Positions 4,246-44,475 of a stretch of 64,000 nucleotides of DNA are shown here, piece after piece. The stretch's first letter is position 1, and each line of letters begins with the position of its first letter. The notes beneath the pieces were generated by a model that did no database searches, was not told the DNA's origin, and saw only the letters and a list, made by a program, of their open reading frames with translations. This DNA is from Luteibacter aegosomatis (GTDB taxonomy: Bacteria > Pseudomonadota > Gammaproteobacteria > Xanthomonadales > Rhodanobacteraceae), in NCBI RefSeq assembly GCF_023078455.1, contig NZ_CP095740.1:3274001-3338000 (forward strand). The letters run 5' to 3'. The position numbers and the translations under genes are program-made.

Positions 4246-5160
4246 GTGCATATCCAGGTCCTGGGTTCGGCCGCCGGAGGCGGATTTCCGCAGTGGAACT
4301 GCAACTGCGCCAACTGCGCCGGTTTCCGCGCCGGCACGCTCCGCGCCACCGCGCGAACGCAGTCATCCATCGCCATCTCCGATGACGGCGTGCATTGGGT
4401 GTTGTGCAACGCCTCGCCGGACATCCGCGCGCAATTGGCCTCGTTCGCGCCGATGCAGCAGAACCGCGCGCTGCGCGATACCGGCATCGCGGCCATCGTG
4501 CTGCTGGACAGCCAGATCGACCACACCACGGGACTGCTGAGCCTGCGCGAGGGCTGTCCGCACGAAGTGTGGTGCACCGACATGGTCCACGAGGACCTCA
4601 GCACCGGTTTTCCGTTGTTCCGCATGCTCACCCACTGGAACGGCGGCCTCGTACACCGGCGCATCGTTCCAGGCGAACCGTTCGTCATCGGCGCCTGCCC
4701 GAAATTGCGGTTCGCGCCGTTCGCACTGCGCAGCGCCGCACCGCCGTATTCACCGCATCGCGGCAACCCCCATCCGGGCGACAACATCGGCCTGGTGGTC
4801 GAAGACCTCGAAACCGGTGGTCGATTGTTCTACGCCCCCGGCCTGGGGGAGGTCGACGACGAACTGCTCGCCGTGATGGCCCAGGCCAACTGCCTGCTCG
4901 TCGACGGCACGCTCTGGCACGACGACGAAATGCGCCGCCGCGGCGTCGGCACGCGCACCGGCCGGGAGATGGGCCATCTCGCGCAGTACGGACCCGGCGG
5001 CATGCTCGAGGTGCTCGCTCGCCTGTCGAACGTGCCGCGACGTGTCCTTATCCACATCAACAACACCAATCCCATCCTCGACGACGATTCGCCCGAGCGC
5101 GCGGAGCTTACGCGCCGCGGCATCGACGTCGCCTGGGACGGCATGGGCATACGACTCTAG
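4246..5160 (+). CDS. pqqB: PqqB, PQQ biosynthesis metallo-hydrolase-fold protein
   Basis: A 304-residue protein of the metallo-beta-lactamase fold, required for PQQ formation; family studies assign it an oxygenase step on the di-amino-acid intermediate. It begins (M)[20 protein letters not shown], the invariant PqqB opening, with the NCNCANC cysteine cluster that binds structural zinc. Other family segments are [23 protein letters not shown] and [11 protein letters not shown]. The GTG at 4246 gives the standard N terminus; an upstream in-frame GTG at 4216 lies inside the hairpin and is rejected. It is followed by pqqC after eight bases. Confidence 0.97.
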
Positions 5161-5168
5161 GACGCCAC

Positions 5169-5918
5169 GTGACCACCGCGCTCAGCCGCAGCGAATTCGA
5201 ACACGCCCTTCGCGACAAGGGCCGCTATTACCACATCCACCATCCCTACCACGTGGCGATGTACGAAGGCCGGGCCACGCGCGAGCAGATCCAGGGCTGG
5301 GTGGCCAATCGCTTCTACTATCAGGTGAACATCCCCCTGAAGGACGCGGCCATCCTCGCCAACTGCCCCGATCGCGACGTGCGCCGCGAATGGATCCAGC
5401 GCATCCTCGACCACGACGGCGCACCCGGCGAAGGCGGCGGCATCGAAGCGTGGCTCAAGCTCGCCGAGGCCGTGGGGCTCGACCGCGAACAGGTGCTCTC
5501 GCAGGAACTCGTGCTGCCCGGCGTGCGTTTCGCCGTGGATGCCTACGTGAACTTCGCCCGGCGCGCGAGCTGGCAGGAAGCCGCGAGCAGTTCCCTCACC
5601 GAGCTGTTCGCCCCGGAGATCCATCGCGCGCGGCTGAGCAGCTGGCCGCGGCACTATCCCTGGATCGACCAGGACGGCTACGACTATTTCCGCACCCGGC
5701 TCGGCCAGGCGCGTCGCGACGTCGAACACGGCCTGAGCATCACGCTCGAGCACTACACCACGTGGGATGCGCAGCAACGCATGCTCGAGATACTGCAGTT
5801 CAAGCTCGACATCCTCTGGAGCATGCTCGACGCCATGAGCATGGCCTACGAGTTGCAACGCCCGCCGTACCATACGGTCACGAACGAACGCGCCTGGCAC
5901 CGGGGTATCGCCCCGTGA
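5169..5918 (+). CDS. pqqC: PqqC, pyrroloquinoline-quinone synthase
   Basis: Cofactor-free oxidase that performs the last step of PQQ synthesis, ring closure and an eight-electron oxidation of AHQQ. The 249-residue all-helical protein shows the family segments [52 protein letters not shown] and [10 protein letters not shown], which carry the substrate-binding His, Tyr, Arg and Lys residues. The GTG start is eight bases after pqqB; the end overlaps the pqqD start by four bases (GTGA). Confidence 0.97.
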
Positions 5919-6190
5919 GCCGCGGACGCATTCCGCAATGGCGTCCCGGCTATCGGTTCCAGTGGGAACCGGCGCAGGACGCCTTCGTTCTCCTCTACCC
6001 CGAGGGGATGGTCCGGCTCAACGAGAGCGCGGGCATGATCGGTGAACTCATCGACGGCAAGCGGAGCGTCGAAGCGATCGTCGTCGCGCTTGCCGCCGAA
6101 TTCACCGACGCCGACAGCGAGGAAATCGGTGCCGACGTCGACGGCTTCATGCAGGTGGCCCATGAAAAGCACTGGCTCCGATTCGACTGA
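5915..6190 (+). CDS. pqqD: PqqD, PqqA-binding chaperone
   Basis: A 91-residue RiPP recognition element (winged-helix) that binds the PqqA peptide and delivers it to PqqE. Recognisable features are [47 protein letters not shown] and the C-terminal [14 protein letters not shown]. The GTG start overlaps the pqqC stop and its 3' end overlaps pqqE by 29 bases, consistent with close stoichiometric coupling of PqqD and PqqE. Confidence 0.96.
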
Positions 6191-7322
6191 CCCCAACCGT
6201 CCCGGCATGCCTTTCTGGCTCCTCGCCGAGTTGACCTATCGCTGCCCGCTGCAGTGCCCGTACTGCTCCAATCCCCTGGATTTCGCCGCGCAAGGCCAGG
6301 AACTCACCACCGACGAATGGTTTCGGGTGCTGCGCGAGGCGCGCGCGATGGGCGCGGCCCAGCTGGGTTTCTCCGGCGGCGAGCCGCTGGTTCGCCAGGA
6401 TCTTCCCGAACTGATCGGCGAAGCCCGGCGGCTCGGTTTCTACACCAACCTCATCACCTCCGGCATCGGCCTTACCGAAGAGAAGATCGCCCTGTTCCGC
6501 GAGCGCGGGCTCGACCACATCCAGATCAGTTTCCAGGCCAGCGACGAGGACATGAACAACCTCATCGCCGGTTCGCCCAAAGCCTTCGCGCAGAAGCTCG
6601 CCATGGCGCGCATGGTGAAGGCCCACGGCTACCCGATGGTGCTCAACTTCGTCACGCACCGGCACAACATCGATCGCATCGACCGCATCATCGAACTGTG
6701 CCTCGCGCTGGAAGCCGATTACGTGGAACTGGCCACCTGCCAGTTCTACGGCTGGGCGCAACTCAACCGCCTCGGCCTGCTCCCCACGCGCGCGCAGCTG
6801 GAACACGCCGAACGCGTCACCAACGCGTATCGCGAGCGGCTGGCAAGGGAAAACCATCCCTGCCAACTGATCTTCGTCACGCCCGATTACTACGAAGAAC
6901 GGCCCAAGCCCTGCATGAGCGGCTGGGGCAGCATCTTCCTCACCGTCACGCCCGACGGCACGGCGCTGCCCTGCCACGGCGCGCGCCAGCTGCCCATCGC
7001 CTTTCCCAACGTGCGCGAGCATGGGCTGGAACACATCTGGTACCGATCGCCCGGCTTCAATCACTTTCGCGGCGACGGCTGGATGCCCGAGCCCTGTCGC
7101 TCCTGCGACGAGAAAGGCAAGGATTTCGGCGGCTGCCGCTGCCAGGCCTTCATGCTCACCGGCGATGCCGCCGCCACCGATCCGGTCTGCGCCAAGTCGC
7201 CCAGGCACGACCTCATCCTCGCCGCATGCGACGAAGCCGACACCGCGGCGAAGCGCATCGATGAACTGACCTATCGCAACGCGCCCAATTCGCGGCTCAT
7301 CGCGCGGGTGACGCCCTCATGA
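6162..7322 (+). CDS. pqqE: PqqE, radical SAM PqqA cross-linking enzyme
   Basis: Radical SAM enzyme that forms the carbon-carbon bond between Glu and Tyr of PqqA, the first committed step. The 386-residue protein has the CxxxCxxC cluster (Cys28, Cys32, Cys35 in RCPLQCPYC), the GGEP motif in [13 protein letters not shown], and a C-terminal SPASM region with auxiliary-cluster cysteines ([27 protein letters not shown] and a final VCAKSP). The ATG at 6162 lies inside pqqD and gives a family-typical short lead before [13 protein letters not shown]. Its TGA overlaps the next ATG. Confidence 0.97.
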
Positions 7323-30238: not shown

Positions 30239-31378
30239 TCAGGCGGGGAAGACCGCGGCAATCGCCTCGACGGGCCGACGCAGGAGGGTCTCGTTGAAGG
30301 CGATCGGCAGTCGGCCGTCCTGCGCCCCGCCCAGGGCGATGTCGGCCTTGTGGGCGCGCTCGCCCAGTCCCGCGGCCACGCTGTCGTCGAGGCGGAGGAT
30401 GGCGATGTTGCTTGCCCTCGGCACGCGCTCCACGCGGATGCCGGGCACGGTATCGAGGCGCTTGAGCAAGGCCTCGCCCGCGGCACGGACCTTGGCGAAG
30501 CGTTCGGTGAAGCCGTCCAGGTGGCGTAGCGCGGGAAGCGCGGCGGGCCAGCCGTGGTAGAGGGTGCCGCCGAAGATGTGGCGCACGTGGCGGGCACGCT
30601 CCATGCGCGCCTTGTCGCCGGCGAGGATCGCGCCGAACGGCGCGCCCAGGTACTTGTAGAGCGATACGTAGACCGTATCGAACGGCGCCGCATACGTGCG
30701 GGGATCGAAACCCGCCTGCCCGCTCATCAGCAGCAGGCGCGCGCCGTCCAGGTGCATGCCCGTGCCATTGCGCCTGGCCAGCTCCGACAGGCGCTGGATC
30801 ACCGCAAGATCCACGCACGAACCATCGAGGCGGCGCACCGGGCTTTCGATGGAGATCGCGCCGATCTCCACGGGATAGGGATCTTCCCCGCGCTGGTTGA
30901 ACGCCGCTTCCGCGGACGCGACCAGGGCCTCGTCGGTGCCGCCGTCGAGCGGCACGGGATTGATGCCGCTGAGTACCGGCGTGGCGTCTTCTTCGTCACG
31001 GTAGACGTGGCTTTCCTTCTGCAGGAGCAGGTGGCGACGTTCGCCGCAGAGAATGCGTAGGGCTACCTGGTTCGCCATGGTGCCGGTAGGCATGAAGACG
31101 GCGTCCTCCTTGCCCAGCATGGCGGCGAAACGCGCCTCGAGCTTGCCTACGGCGCCTTCGTGCAGATAGGCGTCGCCGATGTCGGTATCGCCTTGCAGCG
31201 CGGCTTCGAGTTGCCCAGGGTAATGAATGGCCCGCGACGGGATGCCGTCGCCCGCCAGCGCGACCACCTTCTCGACGGGAATCGGCTTGCCCGTCGGCGC
31301 GGCCCATGCCGTACCGCCCGCGGCAAGCGCGAGCGCGCCCACCGGTACCGACTGGATGAACTCACGACGACTGACCAT
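30239..31378 (-). CDS. Threonine-aldolase-like PLP enzyme with a Tat signal
   Basis: A 379-residue beta-eliminating-lyase/threonine-aldolase-family protein. PLP-fold features: DAYLHEGAVGKLEARFAAMLGKEDAVFMPTG, KESHVYRDEE, GMHLDGARLL and the Schiff-base Lys242 in SLYKYLGAPFGA. The unusual part is the N terminus, MVSRREFIQSVPVGALALAA with AWAAP, which is a twin-arginine signal with a likely AxA cleavage near residue 27. The start is the ATG that opens this signal. Low-specificity L-threonine aldolases are normally cytoplasmic, so export to the periplasm would be notable. Its gene is 54 bases downstream of tRNA-Gly's 5' end on the same strand. Confidence 0.85.
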   Translation of the reverse strand: MVSRREFIQSVPVGALALAAGGTAWAAPTGKPIPVEKVVALAGDGIPSRAIHYPGQLEAALQGDTDIGDAYLHEGAVGKLEARFAAMLGKEDAVFMPTGTMANQVALRILCGERRHLLLQKESHVYRDEEDATPVLSGINPVPLDGGTDEALVASAEAAFNQRGEDPYPVEIGAISIESPVRRLDGSCVDLAVIQRLSELARRNGTGMHLDGARLLLMSGQAGFDPRTYAAPFDTVYVSLYKYLGAPFGAILAGDKARMERARHVRHIFGGTLYHGWPAALPALRHLDGFTERFAKVRAAGEALLKRLDTVPGIRVERVPRASNIAILRLDDSVAAGLGERAHKADIALGGAQDGRLPIAFNETLLRRPVEAIAAVFPA

Positions 31379-31556: not shown

Positions 31557-33740
31557 CTACCTCGGACAGGCCTGCGACGTCGCCCCCAGCAGCGCAGGCA
31601 CCACGCGCGGAGCAACCACGATGCGATCGAGGTCGGGCGCGAAACCGGTGGCATTGCCGAACTGGATCGTGTTGCGGCCCTTCAGCAAACGCACCTCCAG
31701 CACCTTCGCCACCGGATCGTCGAAACTGCTGCCGTCCAGGGCCAGGTCTTGCGGCGTGGCGCCGTTGATCGACATCTGCAAACCGCGCGGCCCGCTGGTC
31801 GCATAGTCGATCTCGAGCTGGTAGACGCCCTCCCTCGGCACGCTGACGTTGGTGAACGTGACCGAATTGGCGCTGCCGCCACCGATGTTGCCGGCCTTGG
31901 CCAGACCCGAGAAGTAATTGCTGAAGCCGGCGGTGACCGTGCCGCCCAACGTCGCCGACTCGGCCTCGTAGGTGGTGGCGTCCGAACGCGGCGCATCGCC
32001 GCGACCGCTGATGGCGATGCGATCGAGGTCCGGCGGGTAGCTCACCGCGTTGCCGAACTGGATGCGGTTGTTGCCCTTGCGCAAGCACACCGGCACGACG
32101 CTGCTCGAGGGCAACTGGAAGCTGCCGCCGCCGGAGTTGAAGGTCTGCTGCGGGCCATCGTTGACCTGGAAGAGGTACGAACGCAGGCCTTGCGTCAACG
32201 AGTCGATGCGCATCAGGTAAGAGCCGTCGCGCGGTGCGTACACGTCGTTGAACGTCACGGTATTGTTCGCGCCCAAGCCGAGGCCGCCGACCTTCTTGCC
32301 GCCGGAACAGGCCACGCAATCGTAGGCGGTCGCCGTGCCGCCCAGCACCGCGGTTTCGGCTTCGTGGCTGACCGACGGGTCGGCCGCCACGTGTCCCGGC
32401 AGCGCCTGCACCAGCAGCAGTTGCGTGCCGTGCCCCGGCAGGATGGTCACGTGGTTGCCGTAGGACGGGCCGAGTTCCTTGTGGCTCCACAGGTCGCGAA
32501 CGCGCAGCGCACCGGTGATGCCCATGTCCTTCCACGGCAGCTCGACCACGGCCTTGGTCGCGTTCATGTTGAACAACGCCACGTAGTAACGCCCGTTGCC
32601 GAGATCGCTCACCCACACCGGCAATTCACCGCCGCGAAGCTGTTTCGCCGGCTTGCCCGACTGGTTTACCGCGATCACCTCGTCGTTGGTGGCAATGGCC
32701 TTGCCGTCGGCGTCGAGCTTGGTGAGGTCGCCGCCGAGGTAGAGCGGCGCGTTGGCCATCGACCACAGCGTGAAGGCCGAGCGCTTCTCGTCGAGGCTCA
32801 GGCCGTCGAGCGCGCCATCGCCGATGTCCAGCGAATCGAGGTCGTTCCAGCCCTGCGACGGGCCGGTCACGTCCTGCCAGCCGGGAAGATCGCGAAAGCG
32901 CTTCTCGATGCGCGGCCAGTTGGTGAGCGTGGCGCAGCGGCTTTCGCACTCCACGTCGTCGTCGATGCGGCGCGCGTTCGACCAGGTGCGCCAGACGTCA
33001 ATGTAATCCTTGTCCACCTGCCACGACACGGTGAACCAGATGGGCCGGCCGCTGCGCGCGATGGCCTTCGACCACGCGGCGACATCGTCGCGGTTGTCGA
33101 TGTGCAGGTCGTCGCTGTACGAGCCCGGGGTAACACCGTCGAGCTTGATGAAATCCACGCCCCAGGATGCGAACAACGCCACTACCGAATCCATGTACTC
33201 CTGCGCGCCCGGCTTGGAGAAATCGATCTTGTAGTGGTACGGCGATTCGCCCGGGCCGCCGAAGGCATTGCCCGCGCGGTGCGGCAACGCGAGGATGTCC
33301 TGGATGTGGTACGGCGTACCGAGGATGGGATAGTTGCCCTGCACCGCCGGCTCTTCCACGCCGGGGATCCAATAGATGCCCGCCTTCTGTCCGTTGGCGT
33401 GGATGTGATCGATCATCGCCTTGATGTCGGGGAACGTCGTCGGATCGGGGATCGGACGGCCGTTGCCGTCGAACGCGCCCATCCAGCCCGAATCGAGGTT
33501 GATGTAGGTATAGCCGTGATCCTGCAGGCCCGACGCCTTGAGCGCGTCGGACTGCTTGATCATGTTGGCCTGCGTAAGGAAGTTGGACTCGATCGTCTGC
33601 TGGCTGAAACTGCTCCAGCCGAGATACGGTCTTTGCGCCACGCCGTTGACCTGGGCCGAAGCGCCCGTGGCGAGGGCTAGCAACCCGCAGGCGATGGCGA
33701 GGCGGGTGCGTGACGGAAACGAAGCGTTGCGATCGTGCAT
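31557..33740 (-). CDS. GH27 alpha-galactosidase with two C-terminal carbohydrate-binding modules
   Basis: A 727-residue exported glycoside hydrolase that removes terminal alpha-galactose. After a signal peptide (AIACGLLALATGASAQ) comes the GH27 barrel (about 38-330): YLGWSSFSQQ, YINLDSGWMG, nucleophile Asp201 in FIKLDGV, and the acid among Asp260-262 in RRIDDDVE. A beta-sandwich domain follows (about 340-450), then two CBM6/35-like modules opening HEAETAVLGGTATAY and YEAESATLGGTVTAG and each ending NxIQFGNAxxxxPDLDRI. The paired modules suggest avid binding to a polymer or glycoprotein. It is the last gene of the minus-strand galactoside operon. Confidence 0.92.
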   Translation of the reverse strand: MHDRNASFPSRTRLAIACGLLALATGASAQVNGVAQRPYLGWSSFSQQTIESNFLTQANMIKQSDALKASGLQDHGYTYINLDSGWMGAFDGNGRPIPDPTTFPDIKAMIDHIHANGQKAGIYWIPGVEEPAVQGNYPILGTPYHIQDILALPHRAGNAFGGPGESPYHYKIDFSKPGAQEYMDSVVALFASWGVDFIKLDGVTPGSYSDDLHIDNRDDVAAWSKAIARSGRPIWFTVSWQVDKDYIDVWRTWSNARRIDDDVECESRCATLTNWPRIEKRFRDLPGWQDVTGPSQGWNDLDSLDIGDGALDGLSLDEKRSAFTLWSMANAPLYLGGDLTKLDADGKAIATNDEVIAVNQSGKPAKQLRGGELPVWVSDLGNGRYYVALFNMNATKAVVELPWKDMGITGALRVRDLWSHKELGPSYGNHVTILPGHGTQLLLVQALPGHVAADPSVSHEAETAVLGGTATAYDCVACSGGKKVGGLGLGANNTVTFNDVYAPRDGSYLMRIDSLTQGLRSYLFQVNDGPQQTFNSGGGSFQLPSSSVVPVCLRKGNNRIQFGNAVSYPPDLDRIAISGRGDAPRSDATTYEAESATLGGTVTAGFSNYFSGLAKAGNIGGGSANSVTFTNVSVPREGVYQLEIDYATSGPRGLQMSINGATPQDLALDGSSFDDPVAKVLEVRLLKGRNTIQFGNATGFAPDLDRIVVAPRVVPALLGATSQACPR

Positions 33741-33848
33741 GGCGCGACTCCATGGGTGAAGGAAGCGCCCGCTCTCGCGGGCACGGTAGAAACCCTTGGT
33801 CGAACGTTCGATGACGTGGCGCGCTGCGCGCCGTCGGCGCGGGCGATC

Positions 33849-36074
33849 TCAGGACTCGCGCGTGAACACCGCGCCCGCCGCCACGAGATCGCCCTTCAAC
33901 ATCAGGTCCAGGCCGTGCTGCATCCAATAGGCACCGCTCGCCACCTCGGGCGTGCCGGGCATCGCCTTGCCATGGATGAAACGCAGGCGGTAATGCGCTT
34001 TCGGATCGAGTCCGCGCAAACGCAGCGTCGGGAAGGGACGTGCTTCCTCACCCTGCCGCTGGAACGCGAACAGCACGACCTGCTTGCCGTCGGTCGACAC
34101 CGACTCGGTGGCCGACCATGGCGCCCTGTTCTGCGGCGACACCAGGCGATAGAGGTCGCCACGCTGCACGGTGGCGCGAATGGTCTTGTACTCGGCGATG
34201 TAATGGCGCGCCGTCTCTCCATCCGCCGGCGTCCACTCCAGCAGGTTCGCGCCGATACCCAGGCCACCCTGCATCGAGGAAAGGAAACGGAAATCCAGCG
34301 AACTGGTGCGGTTGTTCACCCAATTGGGCGAGCCGGTGACCCAGGCCATCATCGTCGCCGGCGCATAGGCCTGGCTGAAGCCGTCCTGGATGGAGAGGCG
34401 ATCGGACGGATCCGTATTGTCCGACGGCCACACCTCGTCGGTCAGCGCCATCACGCCCAGGTCGACGCGCGCGCCGCCGCCGGAGCACGATTCGATCTCC
34501 AGCCCCGGATGACGCTGGCGCAGGCGGCGGAAGATGTCGTAGAGATTGCGCACGTAGGTCACGTAGACCTTCTGCTGATCTTCCGGCGACATCTGTGGCC
34601 AGCCCGGCTCGGACCAGTTGCGGTTGTAGTCCCATTTCAGGAACTGGATGTCGTTCTCGGCGAGCAACTTGTCGAGCACGTCGGTCACGTAGGCCTTCAC
34701 GTCGTCGCGCGCGAGGTTGAGCACCAGCTGGTTGCGCCCCTCGCTGCGCTGGCGGCCCGGAAAGTTGAGCACCCAATCCGGATGCGCGCGATAGAGGTCG
34801 CTGTCGGGATTGACCATCTCCGGCTCCACCCACAGGCCGAAGCTCATGCCGAGCCCGTGCACCTTGTCGATGAGCGGCTTAAGGCCATTCGGGAACTTCG
34901 TGCGGTTCACCGTCCAGTCGCCGAGGCCGGCATGGTCGCTGTTGCGCGCACCGAACCAGCCGTCATCGACCACGAAGCGTTCGACGCCGAGCGCGGCGGC
35001 CTTTTCGGCCAGTTTTTCCTGTCCCGCCTCGTCCACCTTGAATTCGGTGGCCTCCCACGAGTTGTAGAGCACGGGGCGCGGCTTCGCCGACGGGCCTTCG
35101 GGAAGGATGCGGTTGCGTTCGAAGCGATGCAGCAGGCGCGAGGCCTCGCCCGCGCCGTCCGGCGTGTAACCGGCGTAGAAGATGGGCGTGTTCAGCGATT
35201 CGCCCGGTTTCAGGCGATAGCCGAAGTCGAAGGTATTGAAACCGCCGGTGACGCGCACCTGGCCGAGGATGTCCTCGTCCACGCGGATGCGCCACGAGCC
35301 GCTCCACGCCAATGCGCCGAACCAGACGTCGCCGTGTTCTTCGTTCCATTCACCGCCGCGGCCGATCGCGAACCAGGGATTGTTCTCGTCGCCCGTGCTG
35401 CCGCGCCGGCTTTCCAGCACGGTGGAACCCGGCGCGATGGCGCGGGTCTGCAGATGCCATTCGCCGGCCCAGGTGCCGGTGAGATAGCGCAGCGAATAAT
35501 CGCCCGCGGGAAGGCTCCAGGTGGCGGCGGCCGCCTCGTCGACGGTGAGCGCCTGCCTGCTCTTGTTCTCGATGTGCGCGGAGCGGCCGACGATGCCCGT
35601 GGCCGCGTCCATGGTGTAGCGCAGCGTCACTTCCACGCCCGCCTGCTTGTCGTCCATGCGGATCGACAGGCCGTCGCCTTCCACGCGATAGCTGTCGTAG
35701 CGGAGCACGAGGTCGCGATTGCCGTCGTCGAAGCGTACCTTCAACGCGGGCGTGGTGGTGATCGCGCCGCCCCACCCTGCGTATTCCTGGCGCGTGACGG
35801 CGGCGGAGGGATCGAACGAGGAGCGCTGCGGAGGGATCTGTGCCGGGCCGAGCGGATCGTCCTGTGCCAGCCGGGCACCCCAGTAGAGCGTCTGCAGGCG
35901 GCCGTCGGCGTTCACGCCCATGGCATAGGTGACGCCGGCGGCGTCAAGGCGGAATACCTTGTGCTCCGCATCGTAGCGTGGCGTGACGTCTTTCGATGCC
36001 GCGAAGGCCGACGGCGCGATGAAGGCGCCACCGGCCAGGACCAGCGCAAAACGGGATGCATGGATACGGAACAT
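33849..36074 (-). CDS. GH36 alpha-galactosidase, exported
   Basis: A 741-residue family-36 glycoside hydrolase. The signal peptide is MFRIHASRFALVLAGGAFIA with cleavage near FAAS. An N-terminal beta-sandwich (to about 340) leads to the barrel with NSWEATEF, VDDGWFGAR, GLWVEPEMV, nucleophile Asp482 in FLKWDYNRNW, CSGGGARVDLG and acid/base Asp552 in WPSDNTDPSDR. These match alpha-galactosidases acting on raffinose-type or galactomannan ends. The ATG at 36074 is chosen for the signal peptide; upstream open frame is only complement of the epimerase gene. Gaps of 59 and 108 bases join it to the epimerase and GH27 genes. Confidence 0.94.
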   Translation of the reverse strand: MFRIHASRFALVLAGGAFIAPSAFAASKDVTPRYDAEHKVFRLDAAGVTYAMGVNADGRLQTLYWGARLAQDDPLGPAQIPPQRSSFDPSAAVTRQEYAGWGGAITTTPALKVRFDDGNRDLVLRYDSYRVEGDGLSIRMDDKQAGVEVTLRYTMDAATGIVGRSAHIENKSRQALTVDEAAAATWSLPAGDYSLRYLTGTWAGEWHLQTRAIAPGSTVLESRRGSTGDENNPWFAIGRGGEWNEEHGDVWFGALAWSGSWRIRVDEDILGQVRVTGGFNTFDFGYRLKPGESLNTPIFYAGYTPDGAGEASRLLHRFERNRILPEGPSAKPRPVLYNSWEATEFKVDEAGQEKLAEKAAALGVERFVVDDGWFGARNSDHAGLGDWTVNRTKFPNGLKPLIDKVHGLGMSFGLWVEPEMVNPDSDLYRAHPDWVLNFPGRQRSEGRNQLVLNLARDDVKAYVTDVLDKLLAENDIQFLKWDYNRNWSEPGWPQMSPEDQQKVYVTYVRNLYDIFRRLRQRHPGLEIESCSGGGARVDLGVMALTDEVWPSDNTDPSDRLSIQDGFSQAYAPATMMAWVTGSPNWVNNRTSSLDFRFLSSMQGGLGIGANLLEWTPADGETARHYIAEYKTIRATVQRGDLYRLVSPQNRAPWSATESVSTDGKQVVLFAFQRQGEEARPFPTLRLRGLDPKAHYRLRFIHGKAMPGTPEVASGAYWMQHGLDLMLKGDLVAAGAVFTRES

Positions 36075-36133
36075 CGGCGGATCGTCCTCTTCGTTCGTAA
36101 GTCGGCCAGTGTGGCGTCGCGAGCGCGGCGCAC

Positions 36134-37027
36134 TCAACCGACGGGTGCTTCCACGCGAAAAAGGAACCTCCGTTCCATGGAGGTTCCACGGGCAAGCTCG
36201 GTCATGCCGTTGGCGACGGCACCACCCGGGAGGTGGACGGCATCGATGGGATGGTCCACCGGTTCGAAACAGAAGAAATCCTCGCCGGCCGGCACGTAGA
36301 GCACGTAGACGTGGTCTTCCGCGTCGATGTGCAGCTTCATGCGCTTGTCGGGCCATTCCACGGTCGCGCGGCCCGTCCATCCGGTGAAGGCATGATTGAG
36401 CCCCTCGTCCGGCAGCGGCACCGACGTGGCGAAGTCCCACGCCCGTGGCGGGGCCACGTGTTCCGTCGGCATCGGACCGTGCCCGTCGTTGAGCCAGACG
36501 CCGGTGGCGGGCGCATGCAGGCGTACGCCCCCGTGGCGGGGAAAGAACGGGTGCAGGCCGATGCCGAAAGGCAAGGTCGCCTCGCCCGTGTTGATCACCC
36601 GCAAGCGCACGTCGAGCACGCCGTTGGCGAGCGCGTAACGCATGGTGGCGTGATAGGCGTAACCGCCGGGCAACCGGTCTTCCAGGGTCATCCTCGCCGT
36701 ACGGGCGTCCCGGGTCTCCACGGTCCATGGCCTCTGCCAGGCGCTGCCGTGGATCGGATACGGATCGTCATCGCGATTGGGCGACAGGTCGACACGGTGC
36801 CCCCCATGGGTGAAACCACCGCCAGCGATGCGATTGCTCCACGGCACCAACGGATAGCACGCGAGCCGGTTCGGCTCCGGTCGGCCCGGTGCCACCTCGT
36901 GGCCGCCCTCGTAAGGCCGCATCAAGGGCACGGCACCGTCGTCGCCCAGCCAGTCGAACCGCGCGACGCCCCCTCCCACCTCGGGCAGGAGCACAACGCG
37001 AAGCCGGCCATCTTCGAGCTCGATCAC
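36134..37027 (-). CDS. Aldose 1-epimerase (galactose mutarotase-like)
   Basis: A 297-residue mutarotase that interconverts alpha and beta anomers of aldoses. Family features are GGGVARFDWLG, LVPWSNRIAGGGF, PIHGSAWQRPW (catalytic His region), FGIGLHPFFPRH and, near the C terminus, FCFEPVDHPIDA with the catalytic Glu. There is no signal peptide, so it works in the cytoplasm on galactose released outside and imported. It starts with GTG, preceded by GGGGAACG. First enzyme gene of the operon, 149 bases after the GntR gene. Confidence 0.9.
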   Translation of the reverse strand: MIELEDGRLRVVLLPEVGGGVARFDWLGDDGAVPLMRPYEGGHEVAPGRPEPNRLACYPLVPWSNRIAGGGFTHGGHRVDLSPNRDDDPYPIHGSAWQRPWTVETRDARTARMTLEDRLPGGYAYHATMRYALANGVLDVRLRVINTGEATLPFGIGLHPFFPRHGGVRLHAPATGVWLNDGHGPMPTEHVAPPRAWDFATSVPLPDEGLNHAFTGWTGRATVEWPDKRMKLHIDAEDHVYVLYVPAGEDFFCFEPVDHPIDAVHLPGGAVANGMTELARGTSMERRFLFRVEAPVG

Positions 37028-37098
37028 GTCAGAACGTTCCCCAGTCGTATGACGCGCCGACGGCGAAAGCCCGCCCGGTCCGCGACGTCCCAGGGACT

Positions 37099-37121
37099 AA
37101 TTGTAGTATTTTATTATAATC
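37099..37121 (-). promoter_or_regulatory. AT-rich candidate operator/promoter of the galactoside operon
   Basis: A 23-base AT-only island (AATTGTAGTATTTTATTATA then AT) in otherwise GC-rich DNA, between the GntR gene and the epimerase gene. It is an imperfect palindrome: TTGTAGTAT, one base, TTATTATAA agrees in six of nine arm positions, and contains TATAAT in the minus-strand direction. It is the likely site for the adjacent FadR-type repressor. Confidence 0.55.
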
Positions 37122-37176
37122 GGGCCGCAAGCTGCGGCGCAGCAAACGCCGAAACCGCGTTGGGGCGCCGGTCCGG

Positions 37177-37890
37177 CTAGCTCTTTCGGGTGCGGCGGCC
37201 GCGACCGCTGATGTTGTCGCGCGACTCGGCGACCATGCGCAGCATGGCCTGCCGGGCCACTTCGGGCTGCCGCTTCTTCACCGCTTCGTACACCTTCTCG
37301 TGATGCGGGAGGGCCAGCTTGAAGTTCTCCGAATTGCGCGCGGAAAGCAGGAAGAACGTGCCCAGCGCCGTCTCGATCACGGAGAAGAGCGACACCATGA
37401 GCTCGTTGTTGGTGGCGCGCAGCAGGGATTCGTGGAAGGCGAGGTCCGCCTCCGCCCACGCGTCGAGGTCTTCGGAGGCGGCCATCGCCTCATAGGCGGC
37501 CTTGAGATCCTCCAGTTGCTTGGGCGTACGCCGCCTCGCCGCGGCCGCCGCGGCGGCGGGCTCGATAAGCTCTCGCATTTCCACGAGTTTTTCGACGAAG
37601 CTCTCCGTGGGCATCTGCGCGCACCGCCAGGCCAGCACGTCGGCATCGAGCTGGTTCCAGTACATCGCATCGCGCACGCGGGCCCCGGTGCGCTGGCGCG
37701 ACTCGATCAGGCCCTTGGTCACTAGCACCTTCATCGCCTCGCGCAGGGCCGTGCGGCTCACTTTCATCTGTTCGGCCAGCACCTCTTCGCGGGGTAGCCC
37801 CTCCCCCGGCTTGAGCTTGCCGCCGACGATCATCTGCCCCAGCTCCTGGACCACTTGGCCATGCAGGTTACGAGTGGTCACGGGCTTCAC
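37177..37890 (-). CDS. FadR-subfamily GntR transcriptional regulator
   Basis: A 237-residue regulator. The N-terminal winged HTH (about 1-70) has GQMIVGGKLKPGEGLPREEVLAEQMKVSRTALREAMKVL; the all-helical FCD ligand domain (about 95-225) has the metal-binding residues spread over DLAFHESLLRATNNELM, LLSARNSENF and LPHHEKVYEAV. The GTG at 37890 is chosen because GAGGAG precedes it by nine bases; a longer TTG start would place the ribosome site inside the gene. It resembles sugar-acid repressors such as DgoR; here it most likely controls the galactosidase genes just downstream. Confidence 0.9.
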   Translation of the reverse strand: MKPVTTRNLHGQVVQELGQMIVGGKLKPGEGLPREEVLAEQMKVSRTALREAMKVLVTKGLIESRQRTGARVRDAMYWNQLDADVLAWRCAQMPTESFVEKLVEMRELIEPAAAAAAARRRTPKQLEDLKAAYEAMAASEDLDAWAEADLAFHESLLRATNNELMVSLFSVIETALGTFFLLSARNSENFKLALPHHEKVYEAVKKRQPEVARQAMLRMVAESRDNISGRGRRTRKS

Positions 37891-38022
37891 GATGCGTCGC
37901 TCCTCAAGGACTTGGCGTGTCAAATCACGCGCGGCAACGCTACACAGCGCCGTCCTCGGGAGTCAAATCCGCCCGTTCGGCGGCCACGCGTGCCCCCGGA
38001 AGCGCCTCGGCGCCGGGGCGAC

Positions 38023-38532
38023 TCAAGGATGTCGAAAGAAGAGGTACACCGCGCGATACGGAATGCGGATGTCGCTCCCCGCATGCGCGGCATCGCAACC
38101 CGACCCGGGCGCGATACCCCCTTCGGTACGCGTCCGCACGACGAACTCGACCGTCGCCATGCTTCCCATCCCCCCATGCGCCTTCGCGCGCAGCACCAGC
38201 CAGGGTATCGCACCGGCGTCCGGCGACGGCGAGGTATTCAACGCTTCGCCGACGACCGAACTGCCGTCCGACGACTGCCACGTGGGACCGGCGAAATGCC
38301 TGCCGACGACGTTGCCCTTCGCGTCCTTCAGCGTCGCCTCAGGCGCTTTCAGTTGCCACGCGTAAGACCCGACCCTGGCGGCGCACGTGTAGATCTGCAC
38401 GCCATCGGCGAACGCTTCGCTGGCCTTCGGCGACGTCGCAACATCTTGCGACGTCGCGATGGGCGCGAAGAAAAAAGCGCACGCCGCCATGGCGAAGGAC
38501 GGGAAAAAACGAGCCGGTGTCGATGAACGCAT
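38023..38532 (-). CDS. Exported DUF3455 protein
   Basis: A 169-residue secreted protein of the DUF3455 family, whose function is unknown. The signal peptide is about residues 1-28 (SFAMAACAFFFAPIATSQ). Family features: ADGVQIYTCAARVGSYAWQLKAPEATL, GRHFAGPTWQSSDGSSVVGE, GAIPWLVLRAKAHGGMG and the C-terminal GGIAPGSGCDAAHAG; the two cysteines (YTC, SGC) are conserved in the family and may pair. It stands alone upstream of the GntR gene and diverges from the TonB-receptor gene. Confidence 0.82.
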   Translation of the reverse strand: MRSSTPARFFPSFAMAACAFFFAPIATSQDVATSPKASEAFADGVQIYTCAARVGSYAWQLKAPEATLKDAKGNVVGRHFAGPTWQSSDGSSVVGEALNTSPSPDAGAIPWLVLRAKAHGGMGSMATVEFVVRTRTEGGIAPGSGCDAAHAGSDIRIPYRAVYLFFRHP

Positions 38533-38844
38533 ACGTCAGGCCGCGAGTAGGTGATCGCTTCGATCATCGTGCATTGCGACGCCACGGAGTGAGGCACAGG
38601 TTGCAAATACGCATCGTCACGGCCGTCCATCCGTCCATCGCTTGGCAACCCAAAATCATCCTGATACAACCCAGACACGCGCCATCGTCCCCGGCATCGG
38701 CAACGACGGTGGCGCGAAGCTGTTCGACGCGAATCCGCGTTTACCGGGGTGCCACCGACATGCTCCAGGACGACGTCGCCTCCGGTGACCGCGCATGCGT
38801 TGCCGCGTGTTCCATGCCCTCCTACCCACGAAGGTGAGTCAACG
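38533..38844 (+). promoter_or_regulatory. Control region upstream of the TonB-dependent receptor
   Basis: A 312-base gap between divergent genes. A reasonable sigma-70 promoter faces the receptor: TTGGCA at 38642-38647, a 17-base spacer, TACAAC at 38665-38670. That leaves a leader of about 165 bases before the receptor ATG. No operator like the AT-rich one at 37099-37121 was seen. Confidence 0.4.
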
Positions 38845-41800
38845 ATGCCCGACCGTAAGCGCGCCACCCTCGATCGCACCTCCCGGAAGGTCCTGGCCCT
38901 CTGCATGGGCATGGCCTTCGCCGGAAGCGCCTTCGCGCAATCCACCACCGGCTCGGTAGCGGGCACCGTCGGCGGCGGGGGTGCCGGGCAAACGGTGCGT
39001 ATCGAGGGCTCGAACGGCATACGCCGCGAGGTCGGCGTCGATGCTTCCGGTCACTACCAGGCATCGTCGCTGCCCGTCGGCACCTATCGCGTGAGCCTCG
39101 TGCGTGACGGTGCGACCGTCACCACGCGCGAAGGCGTCGAGCTTCGCGTCGGCGGTTCGGCGCAGATCGACTTCGCGGGCGCGGGTGGCACGGGCACCGC
39201 CTCCGCCACGGAACTGGGCGGCGTGAACGTCTCGGCGACCACGCAACCGCCCATCGACGTATCGACCGTCGACTCGCGCACCGTCATCACCTCGCAACAG
39301 CTCAGCCAACTTCCGCTGGCCCGCACCGCCGAAGACATCGCCCTGCTCGCGCCGGGCACGGCCAGTTCGGGCGCGCTATACGGCAGCCGCATCGGCGGTG
39401 GCGGCAACCTCGTGTCCTTCGGGGGTTCGAGCGGCGCCGAGAACGCCTATTACATCAACGGATTCAACACCACGGACCCCTACAAGGGAGAGGGCGCGCT
39501 GCAACTCCCCTACGGTGCCATCGACCAGCAGGAAGTGCTCACCGGCGGCTACAGCGCGAAGTACGGGCGATCGGACGGCGGCGTGATCAACCAGGTAGGC
39601 AAGAGCGGCACCAACACCTGGCACTTCGGCTTCCAGGCGCAGTGGAGCCCGCAGTCGCTGCAGTCCTCGCCCGACAACATCCGCTATGCGAACAACCGCT
39701 TCGCGGGCCAGTTGTACGACTACCGCAACGACGACAAGAGCTGGACGACGACCTATAGCGGCTACATCGGCGGCCCGCTGATCGAGAATCGCCTGTACCT
39801 CTTCGCGGCGGCCGAGGAAGACACGACGCGCGGCTACACCACGGCCACCAACGCCGATCCGTCGAACCCCGACGCCGAGGCCTCGCGGCTGCACTACAAG
39901 AACAAGACGCCGAAGTGGTACGGCAAGATCAACTGGAACATCACCGACGACAACATCCTGGAACTGACCGGCATCCACAGTGAGCAATCGGGCTCGGGCA
40001 CGAACACGAACTTCAGCTACGCCAACCTCGCCACCGACGGCACCACCGCACCCAACGTGCTCACCAAGAGCGGTGGCACGGCCTACATCGGCAAGTTCAC
40101 CAGCTACGTCAACGACGACATCACCTTTACTGCCCTGTGGGGGCGTATGCGCCTGCACGACTACAGTTCGCCGGCCGGTTACGACCCCACCCTGCCCTAC
40201 CTGCAGAACATCACCGACCAGGACCCGCAGGTCACCGGCGGCCGCTCGATCAGCAACCTGCAGACGATTTCGTCGCTCTCCGCGCCCGACCAGGGATCGC
40301 AGAACACCAGCCTGCAACTGAACGTCGAATGGAAGCTCGGCGACCACACGCTCAACCTCGGCATCGACAACGACAAGCCCGAGACCATCGACCAGGGCAA
40401 CAACCAGTCCACCTGGACCTACGGCCAGAGCGCGGGTGCCATCGACGTCGCCAACGGCATCGGCGCGCCGGGTGGCCGCGGCTATTACGTCGTCAACGAG
40501 ATCACCAACGGGGCCTCGGGCGTGAAGACCGTGGAAAAGGCCCAGTACGTCGAGGACAACTGGCAGGTCAACGATCGCTTCCTGCTCACCGTGGGCGTGC
40601 GCAACGATGCCTTCGCCAACTACAACAACAGCAGCGTCAAGTTCACCTCGCAGAACCACAACTGGTCGCCACGCGCGGGCTTCAGCTGGGACGTGTTCGG
40701 CGACGCCACGCTGAAGGTGTTCGGCAACCTCGGCCGCTACTACCTCGCCATCAACAACAACACGGCCTATGACGGCGCCACCGGCTACCTGTGGCAGCGC
40801 GACTACTACACCTACACGGGCATCGCCGCCAACGGCATGCCGACGGGCCTGGCGGAGTTCGGCTCGTACAACGTCAACGGCCACACGGGCCAGGCACCCG
40901 ACCCGGCGACGGTCGCCTCGAAGAACCTCGGCGCGGAATACCAGGACGAGTTCATCCTCGGCGCCACCAAGGCACTGGGCGACGCCTGGATCGCGGGCAT
41001 CAAGGGAACCTTCCGCAAGCTACGGCAGATTTCCGACGACGTCTGCGACAGCGACAACCTGCTCATCGACAAGACCAAGGCCCTCTACGGGCTCACCGAC
41101 GACCAGATCACGGCCAATCGCGGCGCCTGTTACATCTTCAACCCGGGCAAGAGCAACGACTTCCGCGTGGCCACCACCAACGGTTACGTGACCACGCGCA
41201 TGAGCGATGCCGACTGGGGCTTCGCGCAGGGCCCCAAGCGCAACTACTACGCGCTAGAAATGTTCCTCGAGCACCCCTTGGCGAACGGCCCCTGGGGTGG
41301 CCGGCTCGACTACGTGTTCTCGCGGAGCTACGGCAACTCCTCGGGCCTGCTCACCGCGAGCCGCGGCGACGATTCGGTCGGCGTGACGCAGGACTGGGAC
41401 AACGCCTACGTGATGGAAAACGCCAACGGCCTGGCCAGCAACAACCATACGCACCAGATCAAGTTCAACGGCGTCTATCGCTTCTCGCCCGAATGGCTGG
41501 TGTCCGGCGTGATCCGGCTCGCCTCCGGTGCGCCGCGTTATTGCCTGGGCTTCTACGGACCCACGCCCGACGACCCGGCCACCAATACGCCCGACGGGTA
41601 CGGCAGCCTGTACCACTGGTGCAACGGCCAGCCGTCCCCGCCCGGCAAGCAGGGCGACCTGCCCTGGACGCGCCAGGTGGACGTGAACCTCACCTATGCG
41701 CCCGCCTTCGCCGACCACAAGCTGTCGTTCAACCTGAGCGTGTTCAACGCGCTCAACGAGCAGCGGCCGCTGGCGATCTACTCGCGTTTCAATTCCAGCG

Positions 41801-41892
41801 CCACGCCCTCGCAGCGCAACGATCTCTATGGCACCGCCACGGTGCTGGAGCCGCCACGCTACGTGCGTTTCGGCGTGAACTACGATTTCTGA
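38845..41892 (+). CDS. TonB-dependent receptor with N-terminal carboxypeptidase-regulatory-like domain
   Basis: A 1015-residue outer-membrane receptor. The signal peptide ends at MAFAGSAFAQ. A CarboxypepD_reg-like domain (about 35-100; GQTVRIEGSNGIRREVGVDA, SLPVGTYRVSLVRDG) is followed by a plug (SQLPLARTAEDIALLAPGT, YYINGFNTTDPYKGEGALQ, EVLTGGYSAKYGRSDGGVIN) and a long barrel ending in RYVRFGVNYDF with the terminal Phe needed for assembly. This Oar/SusC-like layout is typical of carbohydrate or peptide uptake in xanthomonads. GAAGGTGAG precedes the ATG. It is 13 bases upstream of the PNGase A-like gene, so the substrate is probably a glycan or glycopeptide. Confidence 0.93.
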   Translation: MPDRKRATLDRTSRKVLALCMGMAFAGSAFAQSTTGSVAGTVGGGGAGQTVRIEGSNGIRREVGVDASGHYQASSLPVGTYRVSLVRDGATVTTREGVELRVGGSAQIDFAGAGGTGTASATELGGVNVSATTQPPIDVSTVDSRTVITSQQLSQLPLARTAEDIALLAPGTASSGALYGSRIGGGGNLVSFGGSSGAENAYYINGFNTTDPYKGEGALQLPYGAIDQQEVLTGGYSAKYGRSDGGVINQVGKSGTNTWHFGFQAQWSPQSLQSSPDNIRYANNRFAGQLYDYRNDDKSWTTTYSGYIGGPLIENRLYLFAAAEEDTTRGYTTATNADPSNPDAEASRLHYKNKTPKWYGKINWNITDDNILELTGIHSEQSGSGTNTNFSYANLATDGTTAPNVLTKSGGTAYIGKFTSYVNDDITFTALWGRMRLHDYSSPAGYDPTLPYLQNITDQDPQVTGGRSISNLQTISSLSAPDQGSQNTSLQLNVEWKLGDHTLNLGIDNDKPETIDQGNNQSTWTYGQSAGAIDVANGIGAPGGRGYYVVNEITNGASGVKTVEKAQYVEDNWQVNDRFLLTVGVRNDAFANYNNSSVKFTSQNHNWSPRAGFSWDVFGDATLKVFGNLGRYYLAINNNTAYDGATGYLWQRDYYTYTGIAANGMPTGLAEFGSYNVNGHTGQAPDPATVASKNLGAEYQDEFILGATKALGDAWIAGIKGTFRKLRQISDDVCDSDNLLIDKTKALYGLTDDQITANRGACYIFNPGKSNDFRVATTNGYVTTRMSDADWGFAQGPKRNYYALEMFLEHPLANGPWGGRLDYVFSRSYGNSSGLLTASRGDDSVGVTQDWDNAYVMENANGLASNNHTHQIKFNGVYRFSPEWLVSGVIRLASGAPRYCLGFYGPTPDDPATNTPDGYGSLYHWCNGQPSPPGKQGDLPWTRQVDVNLTYAPAFADHKLSFNLSVFNALNEQRPLAIYSRFNSSATPSQRNDLYGTATVLEPPRYVRFGVNYDF

Positions 41893-41905
41893 GGTTCGGG
41901 ACCCG

Positions 41906-43705
41906 ATGTCAGCCAAGGCAACACTTTCGTTCTGCATGCTGGCGAGCCTCGTTCTCGCCAGCATGGCCTCCCTCGCCGACACGGCGCCTTCCCTGCGCGA
42001 GGCGGCATCGACGGAGCCGCGCCTCGCCCGTCCACCGGGCACGGCGTGCGAGGTTCCGCTCTTCAAGGATCACGCATTCGGCCAGACGGGCGATCCCAAG
42101 GCCATGACGGCCACGCCGCTCGCGTTCGACTATCGGCCACCCGAGGGCTGCGCCGGCCCTTGGGCGAAGGTGGTGCTGGAAGCCGATTTCTCCGTTCCTG
42201 CCGGCAAGCAATACGATCGCACCGCATCGATCTGGCTCGGCGGCGCGAACCTTTATTTCGGCACCACCCAGGAACCGGATGCGAAGAACGGAGCACGTTG
42301 GCACGTCGAGCGCGACCTCACCGACTATGCCGCCCTCTTCCGCTCCGCCCGGCCAGGGCAGGCCATCGTCAACAATTGGCTGAGCGAGCGCTACACCAGC
42401 GCGATCACCGGCAGCGCCCGCCTCGTGTTCTATCCCGTCGGTGCGGGCGCGCCGCAGGGCGATGCCGCGGATGCCGTCTATCCCCTCGGCGCCGACCCTC
42501 GCGGCAACGCGACCATCGTCCAGGACGGCAGGGAGACGCTGACCCGCACGCTCACGCTGCCGCGTAACGTCACGCAGGCGTACCTGGACGTCATCGCCCA
42601 GAGCCAGGGCAACGACGAACCCTGGTACACCTGTATCGACGACGCCCATGTCGCCCAAACGCAAACCTTCGCGCTCGAATCGCCCTACGAGGGAGCCCCC
42701 TTGCAGGAGTGCGGTGGCGGCAACCTGCGGCAGGTGCTGATCAGCATCGACCACCAACCCGCGGGCCTTGCGCCGGTCTATCCATGGACCTACACCGGCG
42801 GCGTGGACCCGCATCTATGGCGACCCATTCCGGACATCCAGACGTTGAACTTCGCGCCCTATCGCGTCGACCTGACCCCGTTCGCGGCGCTATTGGACGA
42901 CGGCCGTCCGCACGACGTGTCGGTGCGGGTGCTGGGCGCGAACCGGTTCTTCAACCTGGCCGCCAGCCTGCTGATCCACCAGGACGCGAAGCGAGAAACG
43001 TTGACCGGAAAACTGATATCCAACGACCTCGCGGCCCGCTCCGGCCTGGGCACGCCCCACGTCGAGAGCACCCTGCATGCCGCGAGCGACGGCCGCATCG
43101 AAGGCACGGTAAACACCACGCGCAAGGATAGCTACCGGATCGTCGGGCAACTGGAAACCTCGCGCGGCACGGTCCGCACGGAAGTGGCCCAGGTATCGTC
43201 GTTCGCGAATCGCCAGACGTTCGTCCGCCCCGATGCGCCTACCTGGCACCAGGTGATCGATCAGACATCGGATACCGACGAGACGGCCACGACGCGCGTC
43301 GGCAACGCCGCTGCGATCGAGCGGCACCGGACATCGTCCTACCCTCTTCGGCTGGACGTGACCAAACACGTGGCGAAGGATGGAAGCTTCCACGGCGAGA
43401 TCGACATGACCCAGGGGCTCGGCGTGCGAAAGCAGACGCTGCGCGGGGGCGACCGCGTCTTCGACGGCCACCTCGATGTATCCATGCAAAGCCACGACGA
43501 AGCCGACTTCAACAGCATGGGAAGCTCGATCGCCAACTCTCGTAACCAGCACGCGAGTCAGCGCCTGTCGTTCAAGGACTCGCTGGGCAGCTGCGTGGCC
43601 ACGACGCTCGAATCGCGCGGCGAGGAGATGACCCACGTCACGCAAGGTAACGGGTGTGACGGCGGATCGAACCGCCTGGATTGGCGATCGACCCTGATGC
43701 CTTAG
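41906..43705 (+). CDS. PNGase A-like peptide-N-glycosidase, exported
   Basis: A 599-residue protein with a signal peptide (CMLASLVLASMASLADT). It matches the plant-type peptide-N4-(N-acetyl-beta-glucosaminyl)asparagine amidase A family: LEADFSVPAGKQYDRTASIWLGGANLYFGTT, TRTLTLPRNVTQAYLDV, SQGNDEPWYT, CGGGNLRQVLISID, and TYTGGVDPHLWRPIPDIQTL. Such enzymes release whole N-glycans, including those with core alpha-1,3-fucose, from glycoproteins; acidic bacterial forms are known, as I recall, in Terriglobus and Dyella-type bacteria. The last 200 residues are beta-rich and unassigned. Cotranscribed with the receptor. Confidence 0.8.
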   Translation: MSAKATLSFCMLASLVLASMASLADTAPSLREAASTEPRLARPPGTACEVPLFKDHAFGQTGDPKAMTATPLAFDYRPPEGCAGPWAKVVLEADFSVPAGKQYDRTASIWLGGANLYFGTTQEPDAKNGARWHVERDLTDYAALFRSARPGQAIVNNWLSERYTSAITGSARLVFYPVGAGAPQGDAADAVYPLGADPRGNATIVQDGRETLTRTLTLPRNVTQAYLDVIAQSQGNDEPWYTCIDDAHVAQTQTFALESPYEGAPLQECGGGNLRQVLISIDHQPAGLAPVYPWTYTGGVDPHLWRPIPDIQTLNFAPYRVDLTPFAALLDDGRPHDVSVRVLGANRFFNLAASLLIHQDAKRETLTGKLISNDLAARSGLGTPHVESTLHAASDGRIEGTVNTTRKDSYRIVGQLETSRGTVRTEVAQVSSFANRQTFVRPDAPTWHQVIDQTSDTDETATTRVGNAAAIERHRTSSYPLRLDVTKHVAKDGSFHGEIDMTQGLGVRKQTLRGGDRVFDGHLDVSMQSHDEADFNSMGSSIANSRNQHASQRLSFKDSLGSCVATTLESRGEEMTHVTQGNGCDGGSNRLDWRSTLMP

Positions 43706-43776
43706 CACGTCGTCGCGCGCTCATGGCGAGACGACTCCCCCCACGAGCATGTGAAGGGAGTTCGCCGTGGCGGGAA

Positions 43777-44064
43777 TCAGCTATTCAGCAGCGCGGCGGC
43801 AGGCTTCTTGTCGGCCGGAGCCATCTGGTCCGACTTCTTCGGGGAGAGATTGCCCAGGGCCTGGCCGAACTTGTCGTTCACGGCCGGCGGCGGACAGGAG
43901 TTGTTGTTGCACGTCCAACATGTGTCCGGGCTGCCACCGGCGGCCATGCAGGTCTGGTAATGGTTGTAGCAGGTCATGCAGGTCATTTCCGCCGACGCCG
44001 TCGCCGACACGGCGATACCGGCCATGAAAAGACCGCTCGCGATCGCACCTGTGAGGAACTTCAT
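43777..44064 (-). CDS. Small Cys-rich exported protein
   Basis: A 95-residue protein with signal peptide MKFLTGAIASGLFMAGIAVS, cleavage near ATASA. The mature part carries six cysteines as CMTCYNHYQTC, then CWTCNNNSC with a Pro-rich tail and KKSDQMAPADKK. The two CxxC pairs could bind a metal or form disulfides. No family recognised. The longer upstream frame adds no signal-like sequence, so the ATG at 44064 is preferred. Confidence 0.65.
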   Translation of the reverse strand: MKFLTGAIASGLFMAGIAVSATASAEMTCMTCYNHYQTCMAAGGSPDTCWTCNNNSCPPPAVNDKFGQALGNLSPKKSDQMAPADKKPAAALLNS

Positions 44065-44475
44065 ATGCAAAATCCTTCTGAATGATGGAGTGACATGGCT
44101 TGCCGCGCGTGCCGTCGCCTTGTGTGACCGAGCGATAGCACCAGTGGGATGCCCCTTTGCCTGACCCGCAGGCAATTCAACGTATCGCGACATACCTGCC
44201 GCGTCTACGAAGGCAGCGAGCCGAGGAATACGCGTGGATGGCGGCGACCGCGTCGCACGGGCTTTCCCTTCCGTCGTGTAGTCTTTTCCCTACAAAATTT
44301 TCCGCGAAGACCTACACGGACTCGAGGGTAATCACAGCGTCTTGATCGTTCATAGCGGCCAGGATGGTCATTTCTATCACCGCGACCCGAGGTCGGAAAA
44401 AAGCGTGCGATACGTCGCGTTTTGGGTGAAAACGCCGTATCTATACTCGCGCGTCCCCGACATCGAAGATCCGAC
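44065..44475. other. Gap between Cys-rich gene and deaminase-like gene
   Basis: 411 bases, noticeably richer in A and T than the flanking genes, holding the divergent control regions. TAGTCTTTTCCC and GGAAAA-type runs are present, and TATACT at 44442-44447 could be a -10 element for the downstream gene though no well-spaced -35 was found. Short frames here have no ribosome site or recognisable product. Confidence 0.35.

Follow-up and report, generated by a model that had tools for sequence, protein, structure and literature searches.

The 64,000-nucleotide stretch of Luteibacter aegosomatis analysed here (contig NZ_CP095740.1, positions 3,274,001 to 3,338,000; hereafter the window) carries two adjoining gene groups on opposite strands. 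Arm 1 is defined as a GntR/FCD regulator, an epimerase, an enzyme of glycoside hydrolase (GH) family GH36 and usually one of GH27, while arm 2 consists of an Oar-like TonB-dependent receptor and a PNGase A-like amidase. With a probability of roughly 0.6, arm 2 is an uptake-and-cleavage pair for N-glycopeptides or compounds of the N-acetylglucosaminyl-asparagine (GlcNAc-Asn) type, located beside an independent galactoside operon. A first-pass annotation of the same DNA had treated the arms as a single locus, but two neighbouring modules are the best reading because the adjacency of the arms is not conserved and no regulatory element is shared between them. PNGases of the window type are already known from the same bacterial family; the new points are the receptor-PNGase pairing, for which no prior report was found in the open-licence library searched, and a GH27 clade with serine at the specificity position.

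We know of no established cargo for most Oar-like TonB receptors. The window receptor exceeds the Pfam cut-offs for Plug and OMP_b-brl_4; its CarboxypepD_reg match scores 30.4 bits and so falls short of the 32.3 set for that domain. It is 68-70% identical to receptors of Dyella, the next best match reaching 51%, and the clade they form has a support of 100/100, calculated with the G151 fragment left out. The clade comprises at least seven loci, namely the window, two further Luteibacter (G123 and G151, the latter a fragment) and four Dyella (G053, G068, G081 and G094). As the orthologue search scored at most five candidates per genome among 147 genomes of the family, orthologues may be missed; in the 23 Luteibacter genomes all but one or two candidates were scored, and the partial receptor of G151, missed by the threshold, was seen through the contig bearing its PNGase.

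The neighbours of these receptors carry most of the argument. In the window the PNGase gene starts after a gap of 13 bp from the receptor stop, and in G151 a PNGase 72% identical to that of the window follows 7 bp after the receptor end. All four Dyella loci share the order divergent LacI, glucokinase, receptor, Asparaginase_2 and CutC. By sequence, the Asparaginase_2 protein of G053 belongs to the glycosylasparaginases (E 2e-111 against solved glycosylasparaginases vs 1.5e-40 for the best isoaspartyl peptidase), and its counterparts in the remaining Dyella share 81-96% identity with it. In 6 of the 7 known clade loci the gene next downstream of the receptor encodes a homologue of a GlcNAc-Asn-cleaving enzyme, and none was found within 4 kb of the 28 other Oar-like loci compared. 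The receptor clade may take up N-glycopeptide or GlcNAc-Asn-type cargo; since its members adjoin homologues of two different enzymes cutting the GlcNAc-Asn bond in two genera, the prediction is direct and testable. The N-glycan theme that the first-pass annotation had proposed for the pair is supported by the Dyella glycosylasparaginases and by the PNGase of the second Luteibacter.

The window PNGase matches the solved chain 9vla ('PNGase Bb', E 1.4e-53) and retains 102 of 105 conserved columns (at least 95% identical across 44 sequences, two of them duplicates), departing at 283, 308 and 374. It shares its Pfam family and conserved columns with the PNGase A and PNGase H+ enzymes, among them PNGaseDj of Dyella japonica and PNGaseRc of Rudaea cellulosilytica, which are active and tolerate core alpha-1,3-fucose according to the accessible text of PMC10154615. 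Both come from the bacterial family of the window, and the likeness to them rests on their description in that text, not on sequence. Unlike these comparators, the window PNGase has a TonB receptor as operon partner. PNGase genes occur in 83 of the 147 family genomes and in 14 of 23 Luteibacter; a 42-46% relative is carried by 13 of these 14, and only G151 also has a 71-72% orthologue. In G028, of another genus, a PNGase-like gene of reduced length (L123:9476-10884; 54% over part) adjoins the rne-LuxR pair which in Luteibacter flanks arm 1.

The earlier annotation let the receptor import what the PNGase had already freed. The reverse order, glycopeptide import first and periplasmic cleavage second, is favoured here because almond PNGase A acts on peptides and not on proteins (PMC10154615, in the part available) and the Dyella glycosylasparaginase starts with a twin-arginine translocation (Tat)-like signal, recognised by eye. 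Because PNGaseRc acts on native protein (same source, same part), neither a glycopeptide preference of the window PNGase nor the import-first order that would follow from it is secure.

This activity of PNGaseRc is one of several points that weigh against the proposed role of arm 2 and its independence. G123 has the clade receptor and lacks the PNGase; moreover, its receptor is divergent from and beside the regulator, an arrangement in which the arms may be linked. Because the four Dyella loci are near kin, the receptor-enzyme associations reduce to about two independent ones. The LacI-type operator TGATAACGTTACCA, present in 4/4 Dyella loci, is absent at up to 3 mismatches from the window, from G123 and from the glycosylasparaginase (AGA) locus of the host, whose genome is a single contig of 4.76 Mb; among the host GH92 loci, which were scanned as well, one 3-mismatch palindrome occurs, at the GH2-GH125-GH92 locus.

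It could also be argued that receptor and PNGase are chance neighbours, the former serving ordinary peptides and the latter being an orphan enzyme. Oar-like receptors are abundant (up to 38 candidates per genome at first look), loci L139 and L155 adjoin 49-52% relatives of a Peptidase_S15-related protein, and, in the loci read, sugar genes are lacking around many of the family's PNGase genes. Such a coincidence is nevertheless very unlikely in view of the 13-bp and 7-bp gaps in two species with PNGases 72% alike, and of the glycosylasparaginase adjoining the receptor orthologues in every Dyella locus.

Putative machinery for freed N-glycans exists elsewhere in the host genome, as it has a glycosylasparaginase homologue and GH92 genes. 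Both are found in 23/23 Luteibacter, and the host has five GH92 genes, of which one belongs to a receptor-GH2-GH125-GH92 run. In the host, G123 and G010, glycosylasparaginase and CutC lie together without the receptor, and by eye the genes on either side correspond to those at the Dyella site, while the G151 contig begins inside the glycosylasparaginase gene.

Among known systems, the Dyella operon resembles arm 2 in its orthologous receptor and differs in having a glycosylasparaginase where the window has a PNGase. The nix N-glycan cluster of Xanthomonas likewise joins a TonB-dependent receptor to exported glycan enzymes and, as far as the available text of PMC5700972 describes it, has asparaginase and CutC linked. 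It uses the nixD-L hydrolases, e.g. fucosidase and beta-galactosidase, whereas the window arms lack those families and have a PNGase instead: GH29, GH20, GH92, GH125 and GH2 were not found among the eight window proteins scanned, and the nix-type hydrolase set is missing from them. A locus of the N-glycan type in another genus (G118, L094:1744-19900) comprises a sugar permease, two GH29, a PNGase, a TonB receptor, a GH20, a canonical GH27 and a GH2.

Arm 1 is best read as a widespread, ordinary galactoside operon with its own promoter element, independent of arm 2. GH36 was found in 18/23 Luteibacter genomes, and its neighbourhoods were read in the 17 others besides the host, over about 20 kb in 16 (with a contig end truncating those of G076 and G089) and over a contig of 7.6 kb in G151. 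Regulator, epimerase and GH36 are collinear in 16 of the 18 loci, window included; G062 departs in its orientation, and the G151 contig breaks off within the epimerase. A GH27 comes after GH36 in 13 of the 18 loci, with the G151 copy called in two pieces. A receptor of the TonB-Xanth-Caul type (typed in G123) lies within the operon in 5/17 of the others and beside it in G062. Window arm 1 has no such internal receptor, and the Oar-like receptor of arm 2 is unlike those of the related galactoside operons.

Textbook motifs of FCD-type regulators (T.GT...AC.A, TGGT..ACCA, TTGT..ACAA) are absent from the 16 upstream and 16 downstream regions, and the conserved element then emerged from comparison. 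The sequence ATWAAATACTACWATT is present in all 16 compared Luteibacter regions between the regulator and the next gene, preceded by a palindrome which reads GCTGCGNCGCAGC in 14 regions and has one change in the other two. Allowing up to 1 mismatch, the genus contains 21 sites in 16/23 genomes, and the reversed control 0. The host genome has a single site at this threshold (Table 1), and even with 4 mismatches allowed the rest of the window, arm 2 included, contains none. The five additional sites all belong to G089, G150 and G154, where they lie upstream of a GH27 facing a GH76 (all three) and between a GH95 and a receptor-GH35-GH27 run (G089 and G154). The regulator thus probably governs galactose-releasing enzymes, presumably by binding the element. 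At L078 (G089), L212 (G154) and L213 (G150), the GH27 opposed to GH76 across the element is of the Ser type, and such pairs hint at a mannan-type substrate. Another PNGase paralogue is located near the element-bearing GH27 in G089 and G154 (two genes between in the latter); G150 has no PNGase there.

The linkage of the arms implied by the single-locus proposal was looked for in the 16 other Luteibacter neighbourhoods of about 20 kb and was not found: a PNGase is near arm 1 in 0/16 (the 7.6-kb contig of G151 is uninformative), and the arm-1 element is not near arm 2. Within the genus, PNGase and GH36 are not associated (10/18 GH36 genomes vs 4/5 without GH36; Fisher p 0.61). In the family sample a PNGase occurs in 15/19 GH36 genomes vs 68/128 others (p 0.046, uncorrected for kinship) and in 10/13 genomes with the GH27 clade vs 73/134 others (p 0.15). 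The arms are unlikely to be one functional locus for alpha-galactosylated N-glycans, with the PNGase freeing the glycan, the receptor importing it and GH27 and GH36 stripping alpha-galactose, possibly from fungal N-linked mannan. That proposal gains from the physical adjacency in the window, the G123 receptor staying beside the regulator, the uncorrected family association, the PNGase paralogue near the GH76-facing GH27 in G089 and G154, the PNGase and canonical GH27 within the one G118 cluster, and alpha-galactose on the mannan of some yeasts (PMC10154615, accessible part); besides the missing linkage, element and genus-level association, the G150 GH76-GH27 pair without a PNGase speaks against it. 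Very little credence is given to a variant in which the receptor-PNGase operon and the Ser-type GH27 together make up a single system for harvesting N-linked mannoprotein that bears alpha-galactose, e.g. fungal, this GH27 having a new specificity and CBM35-like carbohydrate-binding modules (CBMs); it is entertained because in G089 and G154 the GH27, under the regulator element, lies opposite a mannanase-type GH76 gene and close to another PNGase. The doubt of the first-pass annotation about alpha-galactose in plant N-glycans, and its naming of other substrates, are judged right.

The GH27 enzyme of arm 1 carries two CBM35-like modules in its C-terminal part and, as judged by eye, a signal peptide. 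Of the two modules named earlier, one is recognised by Pfam as CBM_35 (residues 589-700), while the second (about 449-578) is visible through matches to the solved chains 2wz8 and 7byv. The catalytic pair Asp201 and Asp262 is invariant in 16 aligned sequences and the predicted model has the Melibiase fold, so that family GH27 stands. Its earlier designation as an alpha-galactosidase is not secured, because Ser84 fits neither rule for this position, which is Asp in GH27 alpha-galactosidases and Ile or Glu in beta-L-arabinopyranosidases (PMC4598101). Serine occupies it in 22/22 clade members read, window included. The fold and Asp pair are shared with GsAbp (4nx0) and the alpha-galactosidases 1uas and 6f4c, the loop insert may correspond to that of GsAbp, and at the specificity residue the window enzyme is unlike both GsAbp (Ile) and the alpha-galactosidases (Asp). 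Taken over its whole length, the alignment with GsAbp is continuous (20-437), whereas that with plant enzymes is broken. GsAbp is the top structural match of the predicted model, while plant alpha-galactosidases rank first by sequence score; an isomaltodextranase-like GH27 (5awo) was a weaker match by both. The Ser-type clade offers a clear-cut way to test the rule by which this residue divides the two activities. GH36, by its N, catalytic and C domains and its closest solved relative AgaB, is the alpha-galactosidase that it had been called.

The features of GH27 bear on a further reading, held to be improbable, in which both arms use plant cell-wall glycoproteins, arm 1 trimming arabinogalactan proteins (beta-L-arabinopyranose or galactose) and arm 2 taking their N-glycopeptides. 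Ser84, the putative GsAbp-like loop insert, the structural match to GsAbp, the resemblance of a CBM module to that of the galactan 1,3-beta-galactosidase 7byv, and the position of the clade beside GH95 in G011, G021, G062, G053, G115 and G125 (GH95 by eye in the last two) are in its favour; the lead of plant alpha-galactosidases by sequence score, a key residue that is neither Ile nor Glu, and a GH36 that is by homology a plain alpha-galactosidase are not.

Gene content, spacing, the receptor clade with its neighbours and the unique element are direct observations, around which a mechanism for an independent galactoside operon beside an N-glycopeptide pair can be proposed. The FCD-type regulator would act on the single arm-1 promoter, the exported GH36 and GH27 would release galactose (GH27 perhaps beta-L-arabinopyranose), and the mutarotase would convert the released anomer. 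Arm 2 would be a two-gene operon for N-glycosylated peptides. Its Oar-like receptor would carry an N-glycopeptide or GlcNAc-Asn-type compound across the outer membrane; presumably afterwards, glycan and peptide would be separated by the PNGase, an exported enzyme that would work either at the surface or in the periplasm. The freed glycan would then feed mannosidases elsewhere (GH2-GH125-GH92 locus) and the glycosylasparaginase-CutC locus.

Table 1. Features of the two arms in window coordinates; domain calls are Pfam with family cut-offs and gene starts are those of the present gene calls, PNGase start excepted.
Feature	Position	Strand	Basis
GH27 glycosidase, Ser84 at specificity position	31557-33740	-	Pfam Melibiase_2, Melibiase_C, CBM_35; PDB matches; predicted model
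GH36 alpha-galactosidase	33849-36074	-	Pfam N, catalytic and C domains; closest solved relatives AgaB/AgaA, E 4e-132
Aldose 1-epimerase (mutarotase-like)	36134-37027	-	PF01263, 113.9 bits
Promoter/operator-like element ATAAAATACTACAATT, regulator-epimerase gap	37099-37114	-	Comparison of Luteibacter intergenic regions
Palindrome GCTGCGGCGCAGC, same regulator-epimerase gap	37131-37143
GntR/FCD (FadR-type) regulator	37177-37890	-	PF00392 and PF07729 over cut-off
DUF3455 protein, between the two arms	38023-38490	-	PF11937, 96.8 bits
Oar-like TonB-dependent receptor	38845-41892	+	Pfam Plug, OMP_b-brl_4
PNGase A-like amidase	41906-43705	+	PNGaseA PF12222, 165.6 bits vs cut-off 25.3

The gene list of the first-pass annotation agrees with the gene calls and Pfam, except that it overlooked the DUF3455 gene separating regulator from receptor; by gene order, this gene is missing at the corresponding place in G123. 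The regulator reached no equivalog level against NCBIfam. Base composition gives no indication of recent import, the GC content of the seven main genes being 0.655-0.678 vs 0.668 for the window. Over 36900-44300, a scan for sigma-70 promoters returned 0 sites vs 1.1 expected, and terminator-like signals numbered 6 vs 5.1 expected.

Just downstream of GH27, a PLP (pyridoxal phosphate)-dependent Beta_elim_lyase (threonine aldolase-like, Pfam; 30239-31378, minus strand) has an export-like N-terminus by eye, and relatives of it (68-73%) are close to GH27 in G112, G147, G148, G149, G152 and G157. Convergent with the PNGase gene is a small, cysteine-rich, exported-looking protein (43777-44064, minus strand) to which a Pfam search gave no match. 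Furthermore, four consecutive genes on the plus strand (4246-7322) resemble, by eye, genes for the biosynthesis of pyrroloquinoline quinone (PQQ).

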